Below are positions 28,960 through 59,248 of a stretch of DNA of 64,000 nucleotides, in pieces; positions within the stretch are counted from its first letter, which is position 1, and each line of letters opens with the position of its first letter. The notes under the pieces were generated by a model. The model worked only from the letters and a program-made list of their open reading frames with translations. It had not been told where the DNA came from and made no database searches. Source of the DNA: Agromyces sp. Leaf222 (GTDB taxonomy: Bacteria; Actinomycetota; Actinomycetes; Actinomycetales; Microbacteriaceae); contig NZ_LMKQ01000001.1 of the NCBI RefSeq assembly GCF_001421565.1, forward strand, positions 121,277 through 185,276, given 5' to 3'. A program made the position numbers and the translations under genes.

Positions 28960-29955
28960 TCACACTCCATCGAGATCCTCGCCCAAGTCCGTCAGGATGC
29001 GGCGAAGGTCTTGAACCGTCGCGAAATCTATGCTGATCTGGCCTTTTCGTGCACCCAAAGCGATCTTCACGCGGGTGTTCAATCGATCACCCAGTCGGGT
29101 CGCGAGATCGTCCAGGAAATCCTGTCGCTTCCCGGCCGCGGGCTTCGCGCGCGAGGGCGCGGGCGCCGTGGAGGTCGCTGCGGCCTCGGCGGCTCGGACC
29201 GAGAGTTCCTCGTTGACGATCTTGTCCGCGAATCGCTGCATGGATGCGGCGTCGCCGGCGGTCGCGAGGATCGCCCGCGCATGGCCGGCGCTCAGCACGC
29301 CGGCAGCCACCCGAAGCTGTACCGGCTCCGGCAGCTTCAGGAGTCGGAGCGTGTTCGAGATCTGCGGGCGCGAACGACCGATGCGGTTCGCAAGTTCCTC
29401 CTGCGTGATTCCGAAGTCGGCGAGCAGCTGCTGGTACGCCGAGGCCTCTTCGAGTGGATTGAGCTGCGAGCGGTGGAGGTTCTCGAGCAGCGCGTCCCGG
29501 AGCATGTCCTCGTTCGCGGTGTCCTTCACGACCGCGGGGATCGAGTCCAGGCCGGCGGCCTTCGTCGCACGAAGACGACGCTCACCCATGACGAGCTCGT
29601 ACTTGCCGGGCTGATCGGGGTGCGGTCGCACGACGATGGGCTGGAGCACTCCGAACTCACGGACCGAGTGCACGAGCTCAGCGAGGTCGTCGGGGTCGAA
29701 GACGCTTCGTGGCTGCGCGGCGTTGGGCACGATGTCTTCAGGATTCAACCGCGCGAGGCGCGCGCCCGGAACGTTCAGGAGCCCTGCATCGTCGGCCGCC
29801 TGCTCGACGACTGCGACCGTGGTGGCCGTTGTCGCCGGTGTCGCCTCGACGCCCGGGAAGAAGACATCCACCGGGCGAACCGCGCCGTCGGTGGAATCGC
29901 TCGACGGGATGAGGGCGCCGATGCCTCGCCCGAGGCCGGTGCGCTTGGTGGCCAT
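28960..29955 (-). CDS. parB: Chromosome-partitioning protein ParB
   Basis: ParB binds parS sites, spreads as a CTP-dependent clamp and loads SMC, moving with ParA during segregation. The 331-residue protein has the ParB N-terminal domain (NPEDIVPNAAQPRSVFDPDDLAELVHSVREFGVLQPIVVR), the CTP-binding GERRLRATKAAG and ENLHRSQLNPLEEA, and the helix-turn-helix ITQEELANRIGRSRPQISNTLRLL. A basic linker and a C-terminal dimer domain follow. Its ATG shares one base with the parA stop (TGATG), so translation is coupled. Six parS sites lie within 6 kb upstream. Confidence 0.98.
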   Translation of the reverse strand: MATKRTGLGRGIGALIPSSDSTDGAVRPVDVFFPGVEATPATTATTVAVVEQAADDAGLLNVPGARLARLNPEDIVPNAAQPRSVFDPDDLAELVHSVREFGVLQPIVVRPHPDQPGKYELVMGERRLRATKAAGLDSIPAVVKDTANEDMLRDALLENLHRSQLNPLEEASAYQQLLADFGITQEELANRIGRSRPQISNTLRLLKLPEPVQLRVAAGVLSAGHARAILATAGDAASMQRFADKIVNEELSVRAAEAAATSTAPAPSRAKPAAGKRQDFLDDLATRLGDRLNTRVKIALGARKGQISIDFATVQDLRRILTDLGEDLDGV

Positions 29956-31862
29956 CAGATTCCTTCCTTCTGTGCCGCCGCCGCAATCGCAGCGCGCTGC
30001 GCGATCTCCGCCGCAGCCTCACGATACGAGAGCGAGCCAGAGGAGGAGTAGTCGTAGCTGATCACGCTCTGGCCGTAACTCGGTGCCTCAGACACGCGGA
30101 CCGAGCGGGGGATGATCGTCTCGAGGGTCTCCGCAGGGAAGTGGTCGCGCACCTCTTGAGCCACCTGCTGTGCGAGGTTGGTGCGCGAGTCGTACATCGT
30201 AAGCAGGATCGTCGAGAGACGCAGCTCGGGGTTGAGGTGCTTCTCGATGAGTTCGATGTTGCTGAGCAGCTGAGAGAGACCCTCGAGCGCGTAGTACTCG
30301 CACTGGATCGGAATCAGCACTTCGCGCGCGGCGACGAAGGCATTGATCGTCAACAGGCCGAGCGACGGCGGGCAGTCGATGAACACGTAGTCGTACGGGC
30401 GCTCCATCGAAGCCAGGTGCTTGTCGATCGCCCGGCGAAGTCGCTGCTCACGAGCGACCAGCGAGACGAGCTCGATCTCCGCGCCCGCGAGGTGGATGGT
30501 GGCAGGCACGCAGTCGAGCCGTTCGTGCTCCGTCGAAGGGCGCACGACCTGCGCCAACTCGAGGTCGGCGACGAGCACTTCATAGACACTTTGCTGATCG
30601 GAACGGTGGTCGACGCCGAGCGCGGTCGAGGCGTTCCCCTGCGGGTCGAGGTCGACCACGAGCACTTGCGCGCCGGATCGAGCGAGCGCGGCGGCCAGGT
30701 TCACGGCCGATGTCGTCTTCCCGACTCCGCCCTTCTGGTTCGAGATAGTGAAGACGCGCGTGGTTGCCGGAAGCGGAAGCACCGCGGTCTCGAGTGCGAT
30801 GCGTCGACGAGTCTCGTCGGCAATCTGGTCAGCCAGGGGGGTTCCTCCGTATTCAGCGGACGTTTCACGTGAAACATCCGGAGCAATCATCTTCTCAGGC
30901 AGCACCTGAGCGGGAGCAGCGACCGGGGGCGTGGCCGCGGTCGGCTGCGCGTCGGTCGAGTCGGCGTGGTCGCTCGGGTCGCGATCGACTTCGAGCGAGG
31001 GTGGCGACGGGAAGGCGTTCGTTTCACGTGAAACGTCTCGATCGACCGGCACGACCAGATCCGTGGAAGCGTCGCGGCTAGGTGATTCCGTTGGGGTCTC
31101 GGACGCTTCAGCCACGCTCTTCGTGTCTTCATCCGGCTGTGGCAGTGCATCTGGGCCACTCGACTCGATGTCGCGGCCAGAAATGCTCAGCGCCTGATCG
31201 TTCTCCACAGCGCTGGCCTCTGCTGTGTCGAGGTGGGGGATCGGCTGGCTGGTGTCGTCGACGTCCGCGCGCTGATCCTTAGCGTCGGGTGCGTCGGGTG
31301 CCGCGATGGCCGCCGCGCGTGCCGAGTGCAGCGAGCTGACCGTATCAGCGGCCGCATCACCGACGATCTCGCGGATGACGTCCTCGAGCAGGCGATCGGG
31401 TTCACTCTGCGTATGGACGTGGGGGGTGGCATCCGCGGGCACGTCGGTGTCCGCAAAAGCTGCCGCCGTCGCAGCGTCCCAGTCGTACGATGCACCTCGG
31501 GATGCAACAGCTGGAGGTACTGGGGGAGTGGATGAAGCCGTGAGCGAGGGCGACGACGTGGTCGCTTCGCCCGCACCGACAGCGGGGGCCGACAACGGCG
31601 CGCGCTGGAACAGCTCTTGTCCACCACGTTCTGGTGAGGCGTACGCGACAGGAGCTGTCGATTCGACGGGCGCCGGGGGGGCAGTCGGAGTTGGCGGCTC
31701 GGGAACCGCCGGCCGCAAGCCCACAGGCTGTGGCGGCGAATCAGATGGGTGCTGCACTGGGGGATCGGTCTTCGCTCGGATCGCGGACGGGTCGATTTCG
31801 GGGATTGGTTCGGGCTGAGGCCGACGCCGATGAAACCATCCGCGTCCTCCGCCCTGCGCCAT
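29955..31862 (-). CDS. parA: ParA-family partition ATPase with long disordered N-terminal extension
   Basis: ParA drives origin segregation with ParB. Residues about 368-635 form an ordinary ParA/Soj domain: deviant Walker A NQKGGVGKTT near 375-384, VVDLDPQGNAS, IDCPPSLGLLT and CEYYALEG. The first roughly 360 residues are low in complexity, rich in Pro, Ala, Thr, Ser and Asp, and have no recognisable domain; usual ParA proteins are about 260-320 residues in all. The ATG at 31862 has a real ribosome site (GGAG, 8-base spacing). Two perfect parS sites inside the extension are read as DVSRET, near residues 276-281 and 329-334. A shorter product from an internal start (MIAPDVSRET, near residue 326) is possible. 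Confidence 0.93.
   Translation of the reverse strand: MAQGGGRGWFHRRRPQPEPIPEIDPSAIRAKTDPPVQHPSDSPPQPVGLRPAVPEPPTPTAPPAPVESTAPVAYASPERGGQELFQRAPLSAPAVGAGEATTSSPSLTASSTPPVPPAVASRGASYDWDAATAAAFADTDVPADATPHVHTQSEPDRLLEDVIREIVGDAAADTVSSLHSARAAAIAAPDAPDAKDQRADVDDTSQPIPHLDTAEASAVENDQALSISGRDIESSGPDALPQPDEDTKSVAEASETPTESPSRDASTDLVVPVDRDVSRETNAFPSPPSLEVDRDPSDHADSTDAQPTAATPPVAAPAQVLPEKMIAPDVSRETSAEYGGTPLADQIADETRRRIALETAVLPLPATTRVFTISNQKGGVGKTTSAVNLAAALARSGAQVLVVDLDPQGNASTALGVDHRSDQQSVYEVLVADLELAQVVRPSTEHERLDCVPATIHLAGAEIELVSLVAREQRLRRAIDKHLASMERPYDYVFIDCPPSLGLLTINAFVAAREVLIPIQCEYYALEGLSQLLSNIELIEKHLNPELRLSTILLTMYDSRTNLAQQVAQEVRDHFPAETLETIIPRSVRVSEAPSYGQSVISYDYSSSGSLSYREAAAEIAQRAAIAAAAQKEGI
30862..30875. 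other. parS site 1 (inside parA)
   Basis: The perfect 14-bp dyad GTTTCACGTGAAAC is the core of the bacterial parS consensus, the loading site for ParB. It lies within the coding part of the ParA extension and is translated as VSRET. Confidence 0.95.
31021..31034. other. parS site 2 (inside parA)
   Basis: Perfect 14-bp parS core, also inside the ParA extension and read in the same frame as site 1 (VSRET). It is 159 bp from site 1, a multiple of three. Confidence 0.95.
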
Positions 31863-32052
31863 GCCGAATTCTCCAAACCTGATCCGTCATTCCCCACGAT
31901 CGGGTGCCCACCATGTGCGGTGCGACGTCGCCGCCGCGCCAGACAGTCAAGCTTACTGGCGGCACTGACGTAGACCGACGGATCACACGGTATTGCCATG
32001 TGAACTCCACTTCATGTTCGTGCAGGAAGGACATATCGCCGGCCGAGCGGAT

Positions 32053-32066
32053 GTTTCACGTGAAAC
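32053..32066. other. parS site 3 (upstream of parA)
   Basis: Perfect 14-bp parS core, 190 bp upstream of the parA start codon and thus within or near its promoter, in the gene-free stretch. ParB bound here could also influence parAB expression. Confidence 0.95.
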
Positions 32067-32252
32067 TCTTCGACGGAATGCGTGGTGCGCCTGCTGACCT
32101 ATCGGCACCCGCTGGGCCAGCCTGGAGTTGAACGAGTCGACGCGGATGCCCCACCACAGGACTGGACGACGTGCCCGATGCAGGCGAGGCTTGGCGACAT
32201 TTCCCAGACCGCCCGCACCGACGCTCACCTCTCGCTGGAAGTAGTGTTCCCA

Positions 32253-32294
32253 CCTCATGGAATCTGCCCGCCTCATGGAATCTGCCCGCCTCAT
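32253..32294. repeat. 18-bp direct repeat, two copies plus a partial
   Basis: CCTCATGGAATCTGCCCG occurs at 32253-32270 and 32271-32288 and begins a third time at 32289 (CCTCATG). Confidence 0.8.
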
Positions 32295-33212
32295 GACATC
32301 GACCGGCCGCGGGCGTGCTATTCGACCTAAAATCTCGCCGATGTACTGACCCGAACCGTCCATGGCGAGAGATGGTCTCCGACCGTTGCGCGTGTTGCCC
32401 GCAGGGGACCAGGGTGGGTGGGACCACCCGCCACCATGACGACAGCCCGGCGTCATCGCCCGAAGTCCGTCACGCCGAAGAAGAATCATGCCTATCCGGG
32501 GCGAAACCCCGCCACGGCGAGCCCCACGCCTGGCGCTTCGCGCCCTCGCGTTCCAACCCATTCGCTGCCAGTACCCTCACGTATCGAACCCCAGGTGCCG
32601 AGGACTCGATGCCCACGTTCATCCGGCAGCCCGCCGCGCTCGAGGTTCGACCAGACACCCTTGCTCGCCGCGAGACGATCCCCAGCCGATCCAACCGGTG
32701 AATTGCCGGCCCATTCATTTGGTCATTCCGACCGCCTCCCCAACCACGGGTCGACGCCCCGTTTCAGTCATGAGGGCGCGCCTGATCCTGGCACCTGAAT
32801 CACGCGCCTGGCCCTTGGCGTGCATCGCGCCGGCCTGCGCACACACCACGCGCACCCAAGCGTCCGCCCGACGTGCAAGTGGCCAAGCATCATCCGACGC
32901 GCACAGTCCCGATGATCTGCACGTACGAGTTCAGCATTAGCCCGACAGATCCGAGCAGCCTGAAGTCGACCATCGAGGCGCGCCGCTGCCTGGCCAGAAC
33001 AACAACTGACAGGCAGGTCCGTCTGGGCGTACGCCCACCAGCAGGGGCCACCACTCAAGTCCCCAGCTTTGAGGCAAGACGGGTGGAACGCATGGACTGC
33101 GAGTACGTGTGGCCAACCCACCACTCGCTGGCCCACCGAGACTGCCCAAATTGATGCGGCCTGGAGGACGACTGATCTGGCTGATCTCGCCAACGCGCGG
33201 GATAGCTCACCC

Positions 33213-33226
33213 GTTTCACGTGAAAC
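33213..33226. other. parS site 4 (gene-free stretch)
   Basis: Perfect 14-bp parS core in the middle of the non-coding stretch between parA and rsmG. Confidence 0.95.
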
Positions 33227-33788
33227 ATTGCATTGACGACAGGTCCCGTGCGCCACGCGCGAAGACTCGTGGGGTTGTGCTCCAACGGGCTCCCAGAGAG
33301 CCGCCTCCAGGATCTGCGTGACACCACGCGGCGGCGTCGGGTCGTAGAGATACATCTCTTATTACACGCCCTGAACCACGGTGACAGGGCTCCCTGCGTC
33401 GTGAAAGAGGCCTCGAAAGCCACGCCATCGAGAAAAGAGGTCCGCAGAGCGCTCGAAGGAGAACAGCCGTGGGCCCTTCAAAGGCGCAGAGATGATTCGG
33501 GTGTCGATGTGCCTGCGACCTTTGCCCATCTTTATATCGGGCTGGGGAGGGGGTTCAGGAAAGGACAAGGGCCGCAACGCATCCGGCGGAGATTGCGGTC
33601 GCGAGCGGGTGCCAAGGCGAAAGCAACCGCGCTCGGTGAAGATCGCCCGAGCAACGCTGCGGGCGCAGCGGGCACGCCGTGTATAGCTCGCGACCTCGAG
33701 GAGAGCCTCACGGCGCCTCGCGACCCCGCGGAGGCTGCCGAGTGCTCGTTGGGCAGGATGGCAGTCTCTGCGTCGGCGGTCACTGACC

Positions 33789-33802
33789 GTTCCACGTGAA
33801 AC
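33789..33802. other. parS site 5, one mismatch (gene-free stretch)
   Basis: GTTCCACGTGAAAC differs from the perfect core by one base (T to C at the fourth position), which breaks the dyad. It may be a weaker ParB site or one decaying. Confidence 0.75.
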
Positions 33803-34250
33803 ATCAGTCGATGCGCATTGCCCATGCCGTTGGTTGATGGACGCGCTCCATGCACGCCTGCGGCACGGGCCACACATTGAGAAGAAGACGTGTCGGTTGC
33901 ATCCCTGTCGCGGTAGCGCGGACGGCGCAGACGGCGCAGACGCAATCGTGAGCTGAGCATCCGCACCTGGTGATGCGCCGCGAGCCGAGGGTGCCTGTGA
34001 CCGACGGTGGGTGGCACCCCGCGGACCGATACTCGAGCGGTGAGGAACCAGAGTGCGGACTCCATCGGCACGACGAGGAGCGCCTTGTGCAGCTCGGAGG
34101 GAGCACCGCACTACTGCCGGCCCGCCGAGATCGAGCCGCGATCAGATTCTTTCAGCGGCTCGACCACTCGGGGCTCCAGCCGCCATGACCGACGGGTGGA
34201 GGGGTGCTGACTTGCATGCCATTCGCTCGGGAGGACTCCGATGAAAGCCG

Positions 34251-34294
34251 AGGAACGCCGAGGAACGCTGAGGAACGCTGAGGAACGCTGAGGA
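34251..34294. repeat. 10-bp direct repeat, four copies plus a partial
   Basis: AGGAACGCYG repeats at 34251, 34261, 34271 and 34281, followed by a diverged AGGAAAAGCA at 34291. It is too short and spacer-free to be CRISPR. Confidence 0.85.
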
Positions 34295-34370
34295 AAAGCA
34301 TCTTCGGTGGAACGGGGATGAGTGGAACTGACGACCGGAGCGCGGGGTGGTTTGCGCGCACCGAGCGGGT

Positions 34371-34410
34371 CTCACAGGCTCACAGGCTCACAGGCTCACA
34401 GGCTCACAGG
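34371..34410. repeat. 8-bp direct repeat, five perfect copies
   Basis: CTCACAGG is repeated five times without interruption. The copy number of such arrays is likely to vary between strains. Confidence 0.9.
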
Positions 34411-34557
34411 CGAAGTTGACCACCCAGCACCAACGTGAACAGACGGGTGCCACGAGATCCAGCAGATCCGGATCGACGAACCGCACAGAGAGTCGAGCAA
34501 GACCGCAGCGCACCCGTGCAAGAGCGCGCGGCCGGGGGAGACCCGGCCGTCCGCGAG

Positions 34558-35223
34558 TCAGACCCCGGCGATCTTCGCGCGGAACACCCGGGTGAGCTCG
34601 GTGCCGAGTTCCTCGCCGAGCACCACGACCTCGGGGTCCACCACCCGGTACTTGCGGAACACCTTGTCGGCGGCACCGACCTCGCCGTCGACCCCCGCGC
34701 CCTTCAGCAGGACGAACTCGCCGCCGGGCTTGAGGAGGGGAGCGGTCACGGGGATCAACGTGCGCAGGGCGCTCACGGCACGAGCGGTCACCTGGTCGAA
34801 CTGCCGTTTGAAACCGGAGTCCTCGGCGCGAGCGCGTTCGACCACGACGTTCGAGAGTTCCAGTTCGTCGACCTGACGCGAGAGCCAGTCGACACGGCGC
34901 TCCATGGGCTCGATCAGGGTGAACGAGACATCCGGTCGAATGATCGCGAGCACCAGACCGGGCAGGCCGGCGCCAGACCCGACATCGGCAACACGGCCCG
35001 GGCGCAGCAGTGGCGCAATGAGGGCTGAGTTCACGATGTGTCGCGTCCAGAGCCGGGGGAGTTCGAGGGGGCCGATGAGCCCCAACTCCTCACCGTGCTC
35101 GGCGAGGGAGTTTGTGAAGCGTCGACCGAGCTCGAGGTGCTCGCCGAAGACGGCTGCCGCAGCGGCCGGCTCGGATTCGAGCTCGGGGCTCACCGCATCA
35201 GGACTCGAGTGCTCTGCGCTCAT
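34558..35223 (-). CDS. rsmG: 16S rRNA (guanine-N7)-methyltransferase RsmG
   Basis: RsmG (GidB) methylates G527 of 16S rRNA with S-adenosylmethionine; its loss gives low-level streptomycin resistance. The 221-residue product has LIGPLELPRLWTRHIVNSALI, the SAM-binding DVGSGAGLPGLVLAI, and VVERARAEDS and VTARAVSALRTLI. The start at 35223 (MSAEHSS) immediately follows a parS site, so no ribosome site precedes it and expression probably depends on translation of jag. An upstream ATG at 35313 would overlap jag heavily and is less likely. Confidence 0.94.
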   Translation of the reverse strand: MSAEHSSPDAVSPELESEPAAAAAVFGEHLELGRRFTNSLAEHGEELGLIGPLELPRLWTRHIVNSALIAPLLRPGRVADVGSGAGLPGLVLAIIRPDVSFTLIEPMERRVDWLSRQVDELELSNVVVERARAEDSGFKRQFDQVTARAVSALRTLIPVTAPLLKPGGEFVLLKGAGVDGEVGAADKVFRKYRVVDPEVVVLGEELGTELTRVFRAKIAGV

Positions 35224-35224
35224 C

Positions 35225-35238
35225 GTTTCACGTGAAAC
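35225..35238. other. parS site 6 (jag-rsmG junction)
   Basis: Perfect parS core. With one flanking base on each side it fills the whole 16-bp gap between the jag stop codon and the rsmG start codon. Confidence 0.95.
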
Positions 35239-35239
35239 G

Positions 35240-35737
35240 TCAGGCGGAGCGGGTGATGACGGTGTGACGGTCGGCACCCTCGCCACGCGACGCGGAGTGA
35301 AGTCCGCGCTCACTCACGAGGTCGTGCACGAGCTTGCGCTCGTAGGACGACATCGGGGGGAGTGCTGCCTCGGCCGAACCGGCCTCGATGCGCTCGGCGG
35401 CGCGCTCCACCAGGCGAGCGAGCTCGTCGCGGCGTGCATCGCGCGAACCGCCGATGTCGAGAATGAGCCGCGAGAACACGCCGGTCTTCGTCTGCACCGC
35501 GAGGCGCGTGAGCTCCTGCAGGGCGGTGACCGTCTCGGGCTTCGAGAGCAGGTTGAGGTTCGCACCGTCGCCGGCGTTCACCGAGATGTAGGCGCGGCCG
35601 TTGCGGGCATCGATGTCGATGTCGCCGTCGAGGTCGCAGATGTCGAGCAGTTCCTCGATGTAGTCGGCGGCGATGTCGCCCTCTTCTTCGAGCTGCGACA
35701 CGGTGCGCTCGTCATTCAGGTTCTGAACGTCGGTCAT
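35240..35737 (-). CDS. jag: KH/R3H domain RNA-binding protein Jag (KhpB)
   Basis: The 165-residue product has an acidic N terminus, a KH-like domain (EEEGDIAADYIEELLDICDLDGDIDI, then LTRLAVQTKTGVFSRLILDIGG) and a C-terminal R3H domain (MSSYERKLVHDLVSERGLHSASRGEGADRH). KhpB/Jag proteins bind RNA and in firmicutes influence cell-wall growth. It lies 2 bp after yidC, as in many bacteria. It lacks the separate N-terminal Jag domain of the Bacillus protein. Confidence 0.92.
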   Translation of the reverse strand: MTDVQNLNDERTVSQLEEEGDIAADYIEELLDICDLDGDIDIDARNGRAYISVNAGDGANLNLLSKPETVTALQELTRLAVQTKTGVFSRLILDIGGSRDARRDELARLVERAAERIEAGSAEAALPPMSSYERKLVHDLVSERGLHSASRGEGADRHTVITRSA

Positions 35738-37715: not shown

Positions 37716-38152
37716 TCTTCTTCTCCGACTTTCGGATCTCCGCGTCTCACAAGACGGTTCGGCGGTGCCGATCCAGGAGGTGACGGGAAAACTGGGTGCC
37801 CAATGGGCTGGGGTCAACTGATTAAAACTACGGCCTCGAGGTCCCGGGGTCAAACCAGGCGCAGTTCGAGTCGGCGTAGTGCAAACGAAAGAGTATCTCT
37901 CGTTCCTTCGGAATCCCTGTGGAAAGACACGCCGAGAATCATGAATCCCTCGATCGGCATTTGTCCACAGGCCTGACTTTCGCTACCGTTTGAGACCAGT
38001 TATCCCCAGCCTATGGCGCGGAATCACGGGCTTCGCCCAGAATCTCCCCACAGCCAGTGGATAACACTGTGAATACTTCGCCTCGCGCCGCTCACTCCGT
38101 CGTTCGGGGGGACGACGAGCGGATGTCGAGTGCACCGAGAATGCGGGGAAAG
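37716..38152. other. oriC, left part (rpmH-dnaA intergenic)
   Basis: This non-coding stretch contains DnaA-box-like sites: TGTGGAAAG (37919-37927), TTGTCCACA (37961-37969, the actinobacterial consensus), TTATCCCCA (38000-38008), AGTGGATAA (38056-38064) and TGTGAATAC (38068-38076). They lie just upstream of dnaA, so they may serve both origin function and dnaA autoregulation. Confidence 0.8.
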
Positions 38153-57794: not shown

Positions 57795-59248
57795 TTGTTC
57801 AGCACCGCCTCTAGTACCTGCTTTGCGATGGGTGCGGCGATGAGATTGCCGTACCCCTCCTGACCAAGACCCCCGCCATCCTCCACGAGTACCGTGATCG
57901 CATACTGAGGGTTGTCTGCGGGGGCAAAACCGGTGAACCACAAGGTGTAAGGGTCATCCTCGCCGTTCTCCGCTGTACCCGTCTTACCGGCCACGCTGAC
58001 GCCGTCTATTCTTGCATTACTCGCGGCACCGGATTCGACGCCGTTGGTCATCATCTCGGTCATCGTCCTGGCCGTGTCCTCGCTGATCGCGCGACCGAAT
58101 TCCGAGCCCTCGAACTCCTGCAGCGGCGTGAAGTCGGGCGCGGTGATCTGGTCGACCAGGTTCGGGTTCATGACGATGCCGCCGTTGGCGATCGCGGCCG
58201 AGACGACGGCCATCTGCAGCGGCGTTGCTCGCACCGTGTACTGACCGAACGCGCTGAGCGCGGTCTGCGGCTCGTCGAGTCCGCGGGGGTACACGCTCGG
58301 CTCGGTCGCGGTGGGGATCTCGAACTCGTGGTTGAAGCCGAACTTCTCGGCCTGCTCGCGGATCGCGTCGTCGCCGAGTTCCATGCCCAACTCGGCGAAC
58401 GGGATGTTGCACGAGAAACGCAGTGCGTCGGCGAGGGTGACGGTGCTTCCGCCGCTTCCGCAGGTGCCGCCGCCGGAGTTGATCACGACGGAGTCGGTGC
58501 CGGGCAGGGTGAGCTCGCCGGGGTTCGGGAACGTGCTCTCGGGCGTGTACCGGCCGGACTCGAGTGCGGCCGCGGTGACGACGAGCTTGAACACCGATCC
58601 GGGAGGGTTCATGTCGCCGCCGGTCGCACGGTTGATGAGGGGATCGCTCGGGTCGGCGAGCAGCCCCTGGTAGGTCTCCTCGACGACATCGGTGTCGTGC
58701 GACACCAGGGTGTTCGGGTCGAAAGTCGGCTTGGTGACCATGGCGAGGATGCGTCCGGTGGCGGGTTCGGTGACGACGACCGCGCCCTGGTAGTCGCCGA
58801 GGGCGTCCCAGGCGGCCTGCTGGGCGACCGGGTCGATCGAGACATCCACCGATGCGCCCATCGGATCCTGACCGGAGATCAGCCGGTTGATCTTGTCGAA
58901 GAACTGGCTCGAGTCCTGCCCGCTGAGGTACTCGTTGACCGAGCTCTCGAGCCCGGTCGCCTCGCCGTTCACCGGGATGTACCCGGTGACGCCGGCGTAG
59001 AGCGGGCCGTTCGGGTACACGCGCAGGAACTTGTAGTCGTCGTCGGAGGGCTGCGAGAAGGCGACGGGCGTTCCGTCGACGAGGATCGGCCCGCGCTCGA
59101 CCGAGAAGCTCGCGTACAGGGTGCGCGCGTTGCGCGGGTCGGCGGCGAGGTCGCTGGCCGTGAAGTACTGGATGACCGTGGTCGAGACGAACAGGGCCAC
59201 GAACATCAGCAGGGCGAAGATGCTGACGCGCTTGAGTTCGCGGTTCAT
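57791..59248 (-). CDS. pbpA: Penicillin-binding protein 2 / transpeptidase PbpA
   Basis: A class B penicillin-binding protein that cross-links peptidoglycan together with the adjacent RodA. The 485-residue product has an N-terminal membrane anchor (about 8-30), a dimerisation region, and the transpeptidase motifs Ser218-Val-Phe-Lys221, Ser279-Cys-Asn281 and Lys422-Thr-Gly424. It overlaps rodA and pknA by 4 bp each. Confidence 0.96.
   Translation of the reverse strand: MNRELKRVSIFALLMFVALFVSTTVIQYFTASDLAADPRNARTLYASFSVERGPILVDGTPVAFSQPSDDDYKFLRVYPNGPLYAGVTGYIPVNGEATGLESSVNEYLSGQDSSQFFDKINRLISGQDPMGASVDVSIDPVAQQAAWDALGDYQGAVVVTEPATGRILAMVTKPTFDPNTLVSHDTDVVEETYQGLLADPSDPLINRATGGDMNPPGSVFKLVVTAAALESGRYTPESTFPNPGELTLPGTDSVVINSGGGTCGSGGSTVTLADALRFSCNIPFAELGMELGDDAIREQAEKFGFNHEFEIPTATEPSVYPRGLDEPQTALSAFGQYTVRATPLQMAVVSAAIANGGIVMNPNLVDQITAPDFTPLQEFEGSEFGRAISEDTARTMTEMMTNGVESGAASNARIDGVSVAGKTGTAENGEDDPYTLWFTGFAPADNPQYAITVLVEDGGGLGQEGYGNLIAAPIAKQVLEAVLNK

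Follow-up and report, generated by a model that had tools for sequence, protein, structure and literature searches.

The rsmG-parA interval of Agromyces: a single ParABS centromere probably drawn out into a gene-free spacer

In the otherwise tightly packed origin region of Agromyces sp. Leaf222, 2.7 kb without a convincing gene separate rsmG from parA. What is this DNA, and does its presence matter to the chromosome? We addressed this question in a window of 64,000 nucleotides (contig NZ_LMKQ01000001.1, positions 121,277 to 185,276 of the forward strand; all coordinates below are those of the window) and in the corresponding interval of related genomes. An initial annotation, made from the letters alone, had seen in this stretch either a centromere-like segment or the remains of an inserted element, and had proposed a comparison of the interval across relatives.

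Content of the interval in Agromyces sp. Leaf222

The spacer (31863..34557, assigned to no strand) was examined by ORF, codon-score, Pfam, PHROGs and homology searches. It lies between rsmG (34558..35313, minus strand) and parA (29955..31862, minus strand), which is followed by parB (28960..29955, minus strand). The same strand carries yidC and jag; these genes, rsmG and parB were named from sequence and gene order, while the 635-aa parA product contains an AAA/ParA ATPase domain according to Pfam, preceded by a low-complexity N-terminal extension of 370 aa. No spacer ORF of at least 60 aa scored as coding: the best reached -26.8 bits, compared to +77.6 to +558.4 for the 13 training genes, although the genuine low-complexity 5' extension of parA is also negative by this score, so that a disordered protein could escape it. 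From 30783 to 34557 (3775 bp, the parA extension included), no ORF of the window scores as coding; this is its longest such run, and the runner-up measures 985 bp. The gap in packed surroundings that had been described initially is therefore real. None of the nine spacer ORFs matched Pfam at its cut-off (one reached an E value of 0.027), one of the nine gave a weak match to a PHROGs HNH family (E 0.003) in which no single stretch passed alone, and the longest ORF, the only one queried in this way, gave no relative at E ≤ 0.001 among a very large number of proteins. Searches of the spacer against Rfam and for tRNAs returned no family and no tRNA.

The lower G+C content noticed earlier was confirmed (64.5% versus 68.2% in the whole window, with 4% of equal-length windows lower), as were three short tandem repeats with scores of at least 80, an 18-bp unit in 2.6 copies (32249..32295), a 10-bp unit in 5.8 copies (34238..34295) and an 8-bp unit in 5.1 copies (34371..34411); to these we can add a weaker array of 9 bp in 3.0 copies (33916..33942, score 47). 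GC skew is negative in the parA-proximal half (32000-33250) and positive in the rsmG-proximal half (33250-34500), and the flanks differ from both.

All three parS sites of the initial annotation were recovered in the spacer. Two have the exact core (32053..32066, ∼200 bp upstream of the parA start, and 33213..33226), and the third carries one mismatch (33789..33802; GTTCCACGTGAAAC). Three further sites flank them. Two are located within the parA coding region, at 31021..31034, where the site is in frame and encodes VSRET, and at 30862..30875, with an equivalent site in 57/57 Agromyces genomes; the third lies within the 5' end of rsmG (35225..35238), again in frame and encoding VSRET, with an equivalent in 50/57. 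These six sites differ by 0-2 mismatches from the 16-bp parS palindrome TGTTTCACGTGAAACA. Scanning the window with up to three mismatches gave seven matches compared to 0.03 expected from shuffles, the seventh being a three-mismatch match at 58405. Genome-wide (4.43 Mb, 4 contigs), a scan for parS cores with at most one mismatch returned these six and no others; they extend from 30862 to 35238 and thus fit within 4.4 kb, and their density in the spacer is 1.1 per kb. The sites adjoin parA and parB and are close to the origin, as judged from the dnaA and dnaN ORFs starting at 38057 and 40025 (names from sequence).

At the parA end of the spacer, a block on the minus strand (31863..31984) is 80-98% identical in five near relatives and is the probable parAB promoter plus 5' leader. 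It contains a -10-like element, TAAGCT (31950..31955, minus strand), 87 nt upstream of the parA ATG. The pattern GGTTAGGCT/TAAGCT, which was chosen post hoc, is found upstream of the parA start in 40/45 gaps, two of them doubtful, and an unbiased k-mer test recovered the core of the element in 16/45 gaps versus 0.1 expected. A sigma-70 consensus scan and a search for T-run terminators found nothing above shuffles in the gap. Just past the rsmG stop, a G+C-rich hairpin without a T run (34529..34549, minus strand; z -3.6 for a 63-nt stretch) is a possible rsmG terminator. In the genus-wide terminator test, 13/45 gaps beat all six controls versus 6.4 expected, a weak excess. The promoter-like element on the parA side and this weakly supported terminator candidate are the sequence signs that may point to a silent platform.

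The N-terminal ParA extension (30753-31862, minus strand) is of low complexity throughout Agromyces, with a median of 378 aa in 57 genomes; in other Microbacteriaceae, including Microbacterium, Agreia, Agrococcus and Pseudoclavibacter, the part preceding the domain is mostly only 38-73 aa long, counted to the first in-frame start. Across the genus it retains in-frame parS, and in 55/57 genomes it begins with a conserved peptide like MAQGGGRGWFHRRR. Judged by its sequence, the extension resembles a tether that carries an anchor peptide.

Conservation and turnover across the genus

We measured the interval in 57 of 60 Agromyces genomes, leaving out G012, in which rsmG is located at a contig end, as well as G103 and G104, which gave no rsmG match. 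The spacer ranges from 334 to 5920 bp (median 2617), an 18-fold variation, and is at least 1 kb long in 54/57 genomes. All 57 carry at least one parS in the spacer and 55 at least two, amounting to 217 sites in 148 kb or 1.5 per kb. A short, parS-free interval, which the initial annotation had considered for close relatives, was thus not found in any of the genomes measured. Exact parS were also counted genome-wide in sets of 38 and 23 genomes and compared with the rsmG-parA interval. In 50/56 other Agromyces genomes (33/35 and 17/21), all of them are confined to the stretch bounded by the rsmG 5' end and the parA 5' region, as are 294/306 of the exact sites overall. Six genomes have additional ones outside: in five (L115, L133, L184, L186, L188), one or two exact sites are found beyond parA at ∼2-3 kb, close to parB, and of the 13 in the sixth (G105, also L189), seven belong to the interval and six to other parts of the assembly.

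Spacer length correlates with parS number (Spearman 0.59, 57 genomes), and it still does after correction for kinship (independent contrasts, r 0.48; none of 500 tip shuffles was as high). Within the spacer, parS sites are skewed towards parA (quintile counts 31, 27, 33, 42 and 84). In 54/57 genomes versus 36.3 expected, the final site is at most 600 bp away from the parA start, and in 36/57 it is 140-240 bp upstream. The Agromyces layout looks like an old flanking pair of parS with a parS-bearing spacer in between. Close pairing of parS (30-65 bp) was tried and rejected: 15 pairs compared to 9.6 expected, with a simulation maximum of 18, are within chance.

The sequence of the spacer is hardly conserved. 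Matches of the Leaf222 spacer to near relatives are confined to the last 51-126 bp before parA and to short stretches no longer than 64 bp, most of which coincide with parS, and a genus-wide DNA search returned only pieces of 27-51 bp in 3/59 other genomes. Once parS was masked, no part of the spacer (0.0%) aligned in 12 of the 15 species pairs, two pairs aligned over 1.1-1.3% and the closest over 49.8%; in pairs more closely related still, the figure is 45-87%, with inserted genes contributing. The controls, a few short intergenic regions nearby, aligned over 18-76% (parB-ddl, 14 pairs), 64-100% (trxB-murJ, 8 pairs) and 60-100% (dnaA-dnaN, 15 pairs); because of the genes within them, the yidC-dnaA and recF-gyrB stretches are unfair as controls. 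Four-fold divergence in the pair L041/L043 is 0.26, measured over 2409 sites (0.17-0.39 by gene). In a simulation, a divergence of 0.25 left near-full alignment and one of 0.5 with indels hardly any. Since a sequence diverged about as much as the four-fold sites would still align, the spacer changes faster than silent codon sites, a result that stops short of a rate above that of neutral DNA. The search for a further spacer motif by k-mer enrichment recovered nothing but pieces of parS and of the promoter region next to parA. The order of parS agrees between species wherever alignment blocks exist, but several of these blocks are barely longer than parS itself and are no proof of site-by-site descent.

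We also observed that four-fold divergence reaches up to 0.58 in parB, rsmG and ddl versus 0.10-0.31 in dnaA, dnaN and gyrB in most of six pairs. This higher divergence beside the spacer could be an effect of codon bias or of local mutation.

Some Agromyces spacers have gained genes. An ORF scoring above 15 bits is present in 13/45 distinct Agromyces gaps. Representatives encode a Mutator-family transposase, an IS481-like transposase, a glyoxalase-fold protein, an S66 peptidase, a tyrosine phosphatase, a YecM protein and a weak cupin match below its cut-off. The initial annotation had taken conserved, expressed genes in the interval of relatives as an argument against its reading; some relatives do have genes here, but they are clade-specific and not conserved. 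None of the 54 parS sites in 13 gene-bearing gaps lies within an inserted gene, compared to 12.6 expected; the quoted P of 4e-7 is too small in view of shared descent and of coding constraint, because of which some avoidance is expected anyway. This count excludes L115, L121 and L137, which have short ORFs above 15 bits, and includes the low-scoring homologs in L112, L127 and L135. Tandem arrays with a score of at least 80 number 34 in 119 kb of spacer versus 4 in 541 kb of flanks, or 0.286 versus 0.007 per kb, and are thus ∼40 times denser in the spacer.

A centromere, and the role of its spacer

Taken together, parS sites are clustered at one place, a parS-bearing spacer is kept genus-wide, and similarity is lost except at parS and the parA-proximal block. 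The interval contains every parS-like site of the Leaf222 genome, and the arrangement recurs in 57/57 Agromyces genomes, so that the centromere-like segment proposed initially has gained substance. We regard the rsmG-parA interval as the only ParABS centromere of this chromosome, extended into a spacer without genes in which parS and probably length are under selection, and give this reading a probability of roughly 0.6. Its parts differ in strength. That the interval is the centromere is almost certain. Whether the spacer DNA has a selected role appears to us evenly balanced, and we propose only tentatively that in Agromyces the length of gene-free DNA is itself selected while the DNA between the parS sites outpaces silent codon sites. 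Selection would then act on parS and probably on gene-free length, not on sequence, the importance of the spacer DNA itself being what we infer.

In such a centromere, CTP-bound ParB clamps would be loaded at the six parS sites of the cluster, from where they would slide into the spacer and build a partition complex, which in turn would be moved by ParA and would load SMC. These steps are modelled on known ParABS systems, in which ParB is described to load at parS, slide, bridge, be moved by ParA and load SMC (excerpts of PMC7083940 and PMC7022226). Selection would keep gene-free DNA around parS, for example because clashes with transcription would be fewer, and the parS ∼200 bp upstream of parA would help to regulate parAB. 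In Caulobacter, SMC is disturbed by head-on transcription near parS (PMC5583512, in excerpt), and a tight grouping of parS is considered to make collisions of SMC rarer (PMC8357415, likewise); a gene-free, parS-bearing stretch would fit both findings. The need for a silent zone is weakened, however, because RNA polymerase transcription and ParB condensation coexist in vitro without mutual disturbance, according to the part of PMC10681803 consulted. Moreover, the 18-fold length variation and the three species below 1 kb indicate that an exact length is not needed. It also counts against this reading that genes have entered the spacer in some species, that gaps of at most 345 bp suffice in a sister group, and that six genomes have exact parS beyond the interval.

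Other explanations for the spacer have to be weighed against this centromere with selected length. It could be a neutral spacer, in which only parS and the parAB promoter are selected and the DNA between them is unconstrained filler of functionless length, growing by repeats and insertions and shrinking by deletion. We consider this rather doubtful; in its favour are the range of lengths, the dense tandem arrays, the insertion of genes and IS-type transposases, and the lack of any sequence constraint found beyond parS and the promoter region. Furthermore, if the true neutral divergence were at least 0.5 with indels, the loss of alignment would, according to the simulation, need no acceleration. 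Bacterial genomes tend to shed unused DNA, yet 54/57 species keep at least 1 kb. It also counts against neutral filler that length tracks parS number after kinship correction and that the long or short state changed only once in 77 Microbacteriaceae rows (see below).

Far less credible are explanations by hidden or foreign sequences. An unrecognised gene or structured RNA is very improbable: the codon score does overlook coding DNA of low complexity, the parA extension being an example, and chance leaves many ORFs open at this G+C, but in near relatives only parS and the parA-proximal block are conserved, Rfam gave no match, and the longest ORF, the one searched in this way, is without a homolog. 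Hardly any weight is left for the remains of a mobile element inserted between rsmG and parA, the other explanation of the initial annotation. Protein, phage, plasmid and genus-wide DNA searches found no element-like ORF or DNA match in the Leaf222 spacer, only a 43-bp plasmid match and the weak PHROGs match, and the absence of integrase, transposase or phage gene traces largely refutes such an origin. Close relatives offer no empty site, as 57/57 Agromyces genomes have a parS-bearing spacer, and these long spacers share no sequence. Repeats and low G+C would generally fit foreign DNA, and transposases do occur in the spacers of two relatives (L053, L128).

Known systems and related genera

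In the open-licence literature, we found neither a published gene-free parS spacer nor parS described in Microbacteriaceae. Corynebacterium glutamicum has, like Agromyces, an actinobacterial ParABS centromere near oriC with clustered parS. In the sections of PMC7083940 on this system, ten parS form one cluster, nine of the ten intergenic, and SMC loading depends on ParB; these sites occupy ordinary intergenic gaps along 35 kb, at a distance of 73 kb from oriC. Leaf222 instead has six sites within 4.4 kb, three of which share a single spacer without genes. Myxococcus xanthus shares with Agromyces a kilobase-scale parS cluster close to parA, for which excerpts of PMC3899335 give 22 putative sites within 3 kb, located ∼4 kb upstream of parA. 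Its ∼7 sites per kb compare with 1.1 in Leaf222 and 1.5 in the genus, and with three sites in 2.7 kb the Leaf222 spacer is no dense array of this type (about 22 sites in 3 kb). Mycobacteria have the same gidB(rsmG)-parA-parB order, with putative parS upstream of or at the gidB 5' end and inside parA, which are the flanking positions of Agromyces; as far as the available text of PMC2346475 describes the locus, gidB overlaps parA, and neither a spacer nor additional parS separate the two. The near-adjacency of rsmG and parA that had been assumed for most Actinobacteria is thus only partly correct: mycobacteria and the Curtobacterium group show it, whereas several further Microbacteriaceae genera do not.

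For the comparison with these genera we used 80 named loci, which are the best RsmG matches and hence biased to kin; four named loci without parA on the retrieved DNA were omitted. Microbacterium, Agreia, Agrococcus and Pseudoclavibacter have parS-bearing spacers of 0.7-7.1 kb in the same interval, with 2-13 parS-like sites, and 24 of 26 long spacers outside Agromyces lack an ORF above 15 bits (exceptions L092 and L096). Curtobacterium, Salinibacterium, Frigoribacterium and others have at most 345 bp with 0-1 parS. On a tree of ParA, ParB and RsmG, the long or short state requires one change in the 77 Microbacteriaceae rows and five in all 98, on a quick tree with several weak deep branches. 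If length is indeed selected in Agromyces, this would probably hold for much of the Microbacteriaceae.

This natural series of ∼57 species, in which parS number, parS spacing and spacer length vary and the machinery is constant, together with a related group lacking the spacer, makes it testable whether parS alone suffices or unobstructed DNA for ParB sliding and SMC loading is also needed. It also provides a bacterial centromere whose sites persist while the surrounding DNA is quickly replaced; a turnover under selection for length, if true, would echo the fast-evolving centromeres of eukaryotes.

Exact parS numbered 5-9 genome-wide in six Microbacterium genomes. Five Curtobacterium genomes (L056, L074, L080, L085, L100) contain only 0-1 exact 14-bp cores each, and their site near parA mostly has one mismatch or was not found; judging from these sites, the parS consensus may be shifted in Curtobacterium. 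The most extreme spacers observed are those of two Pseudoclavibacter loci (L066 and L079), which measure 7.1 and 6.3 kb, carry 13 and 12 parS-like sites, respectively, and contain no ORF scoring above 0 bits.
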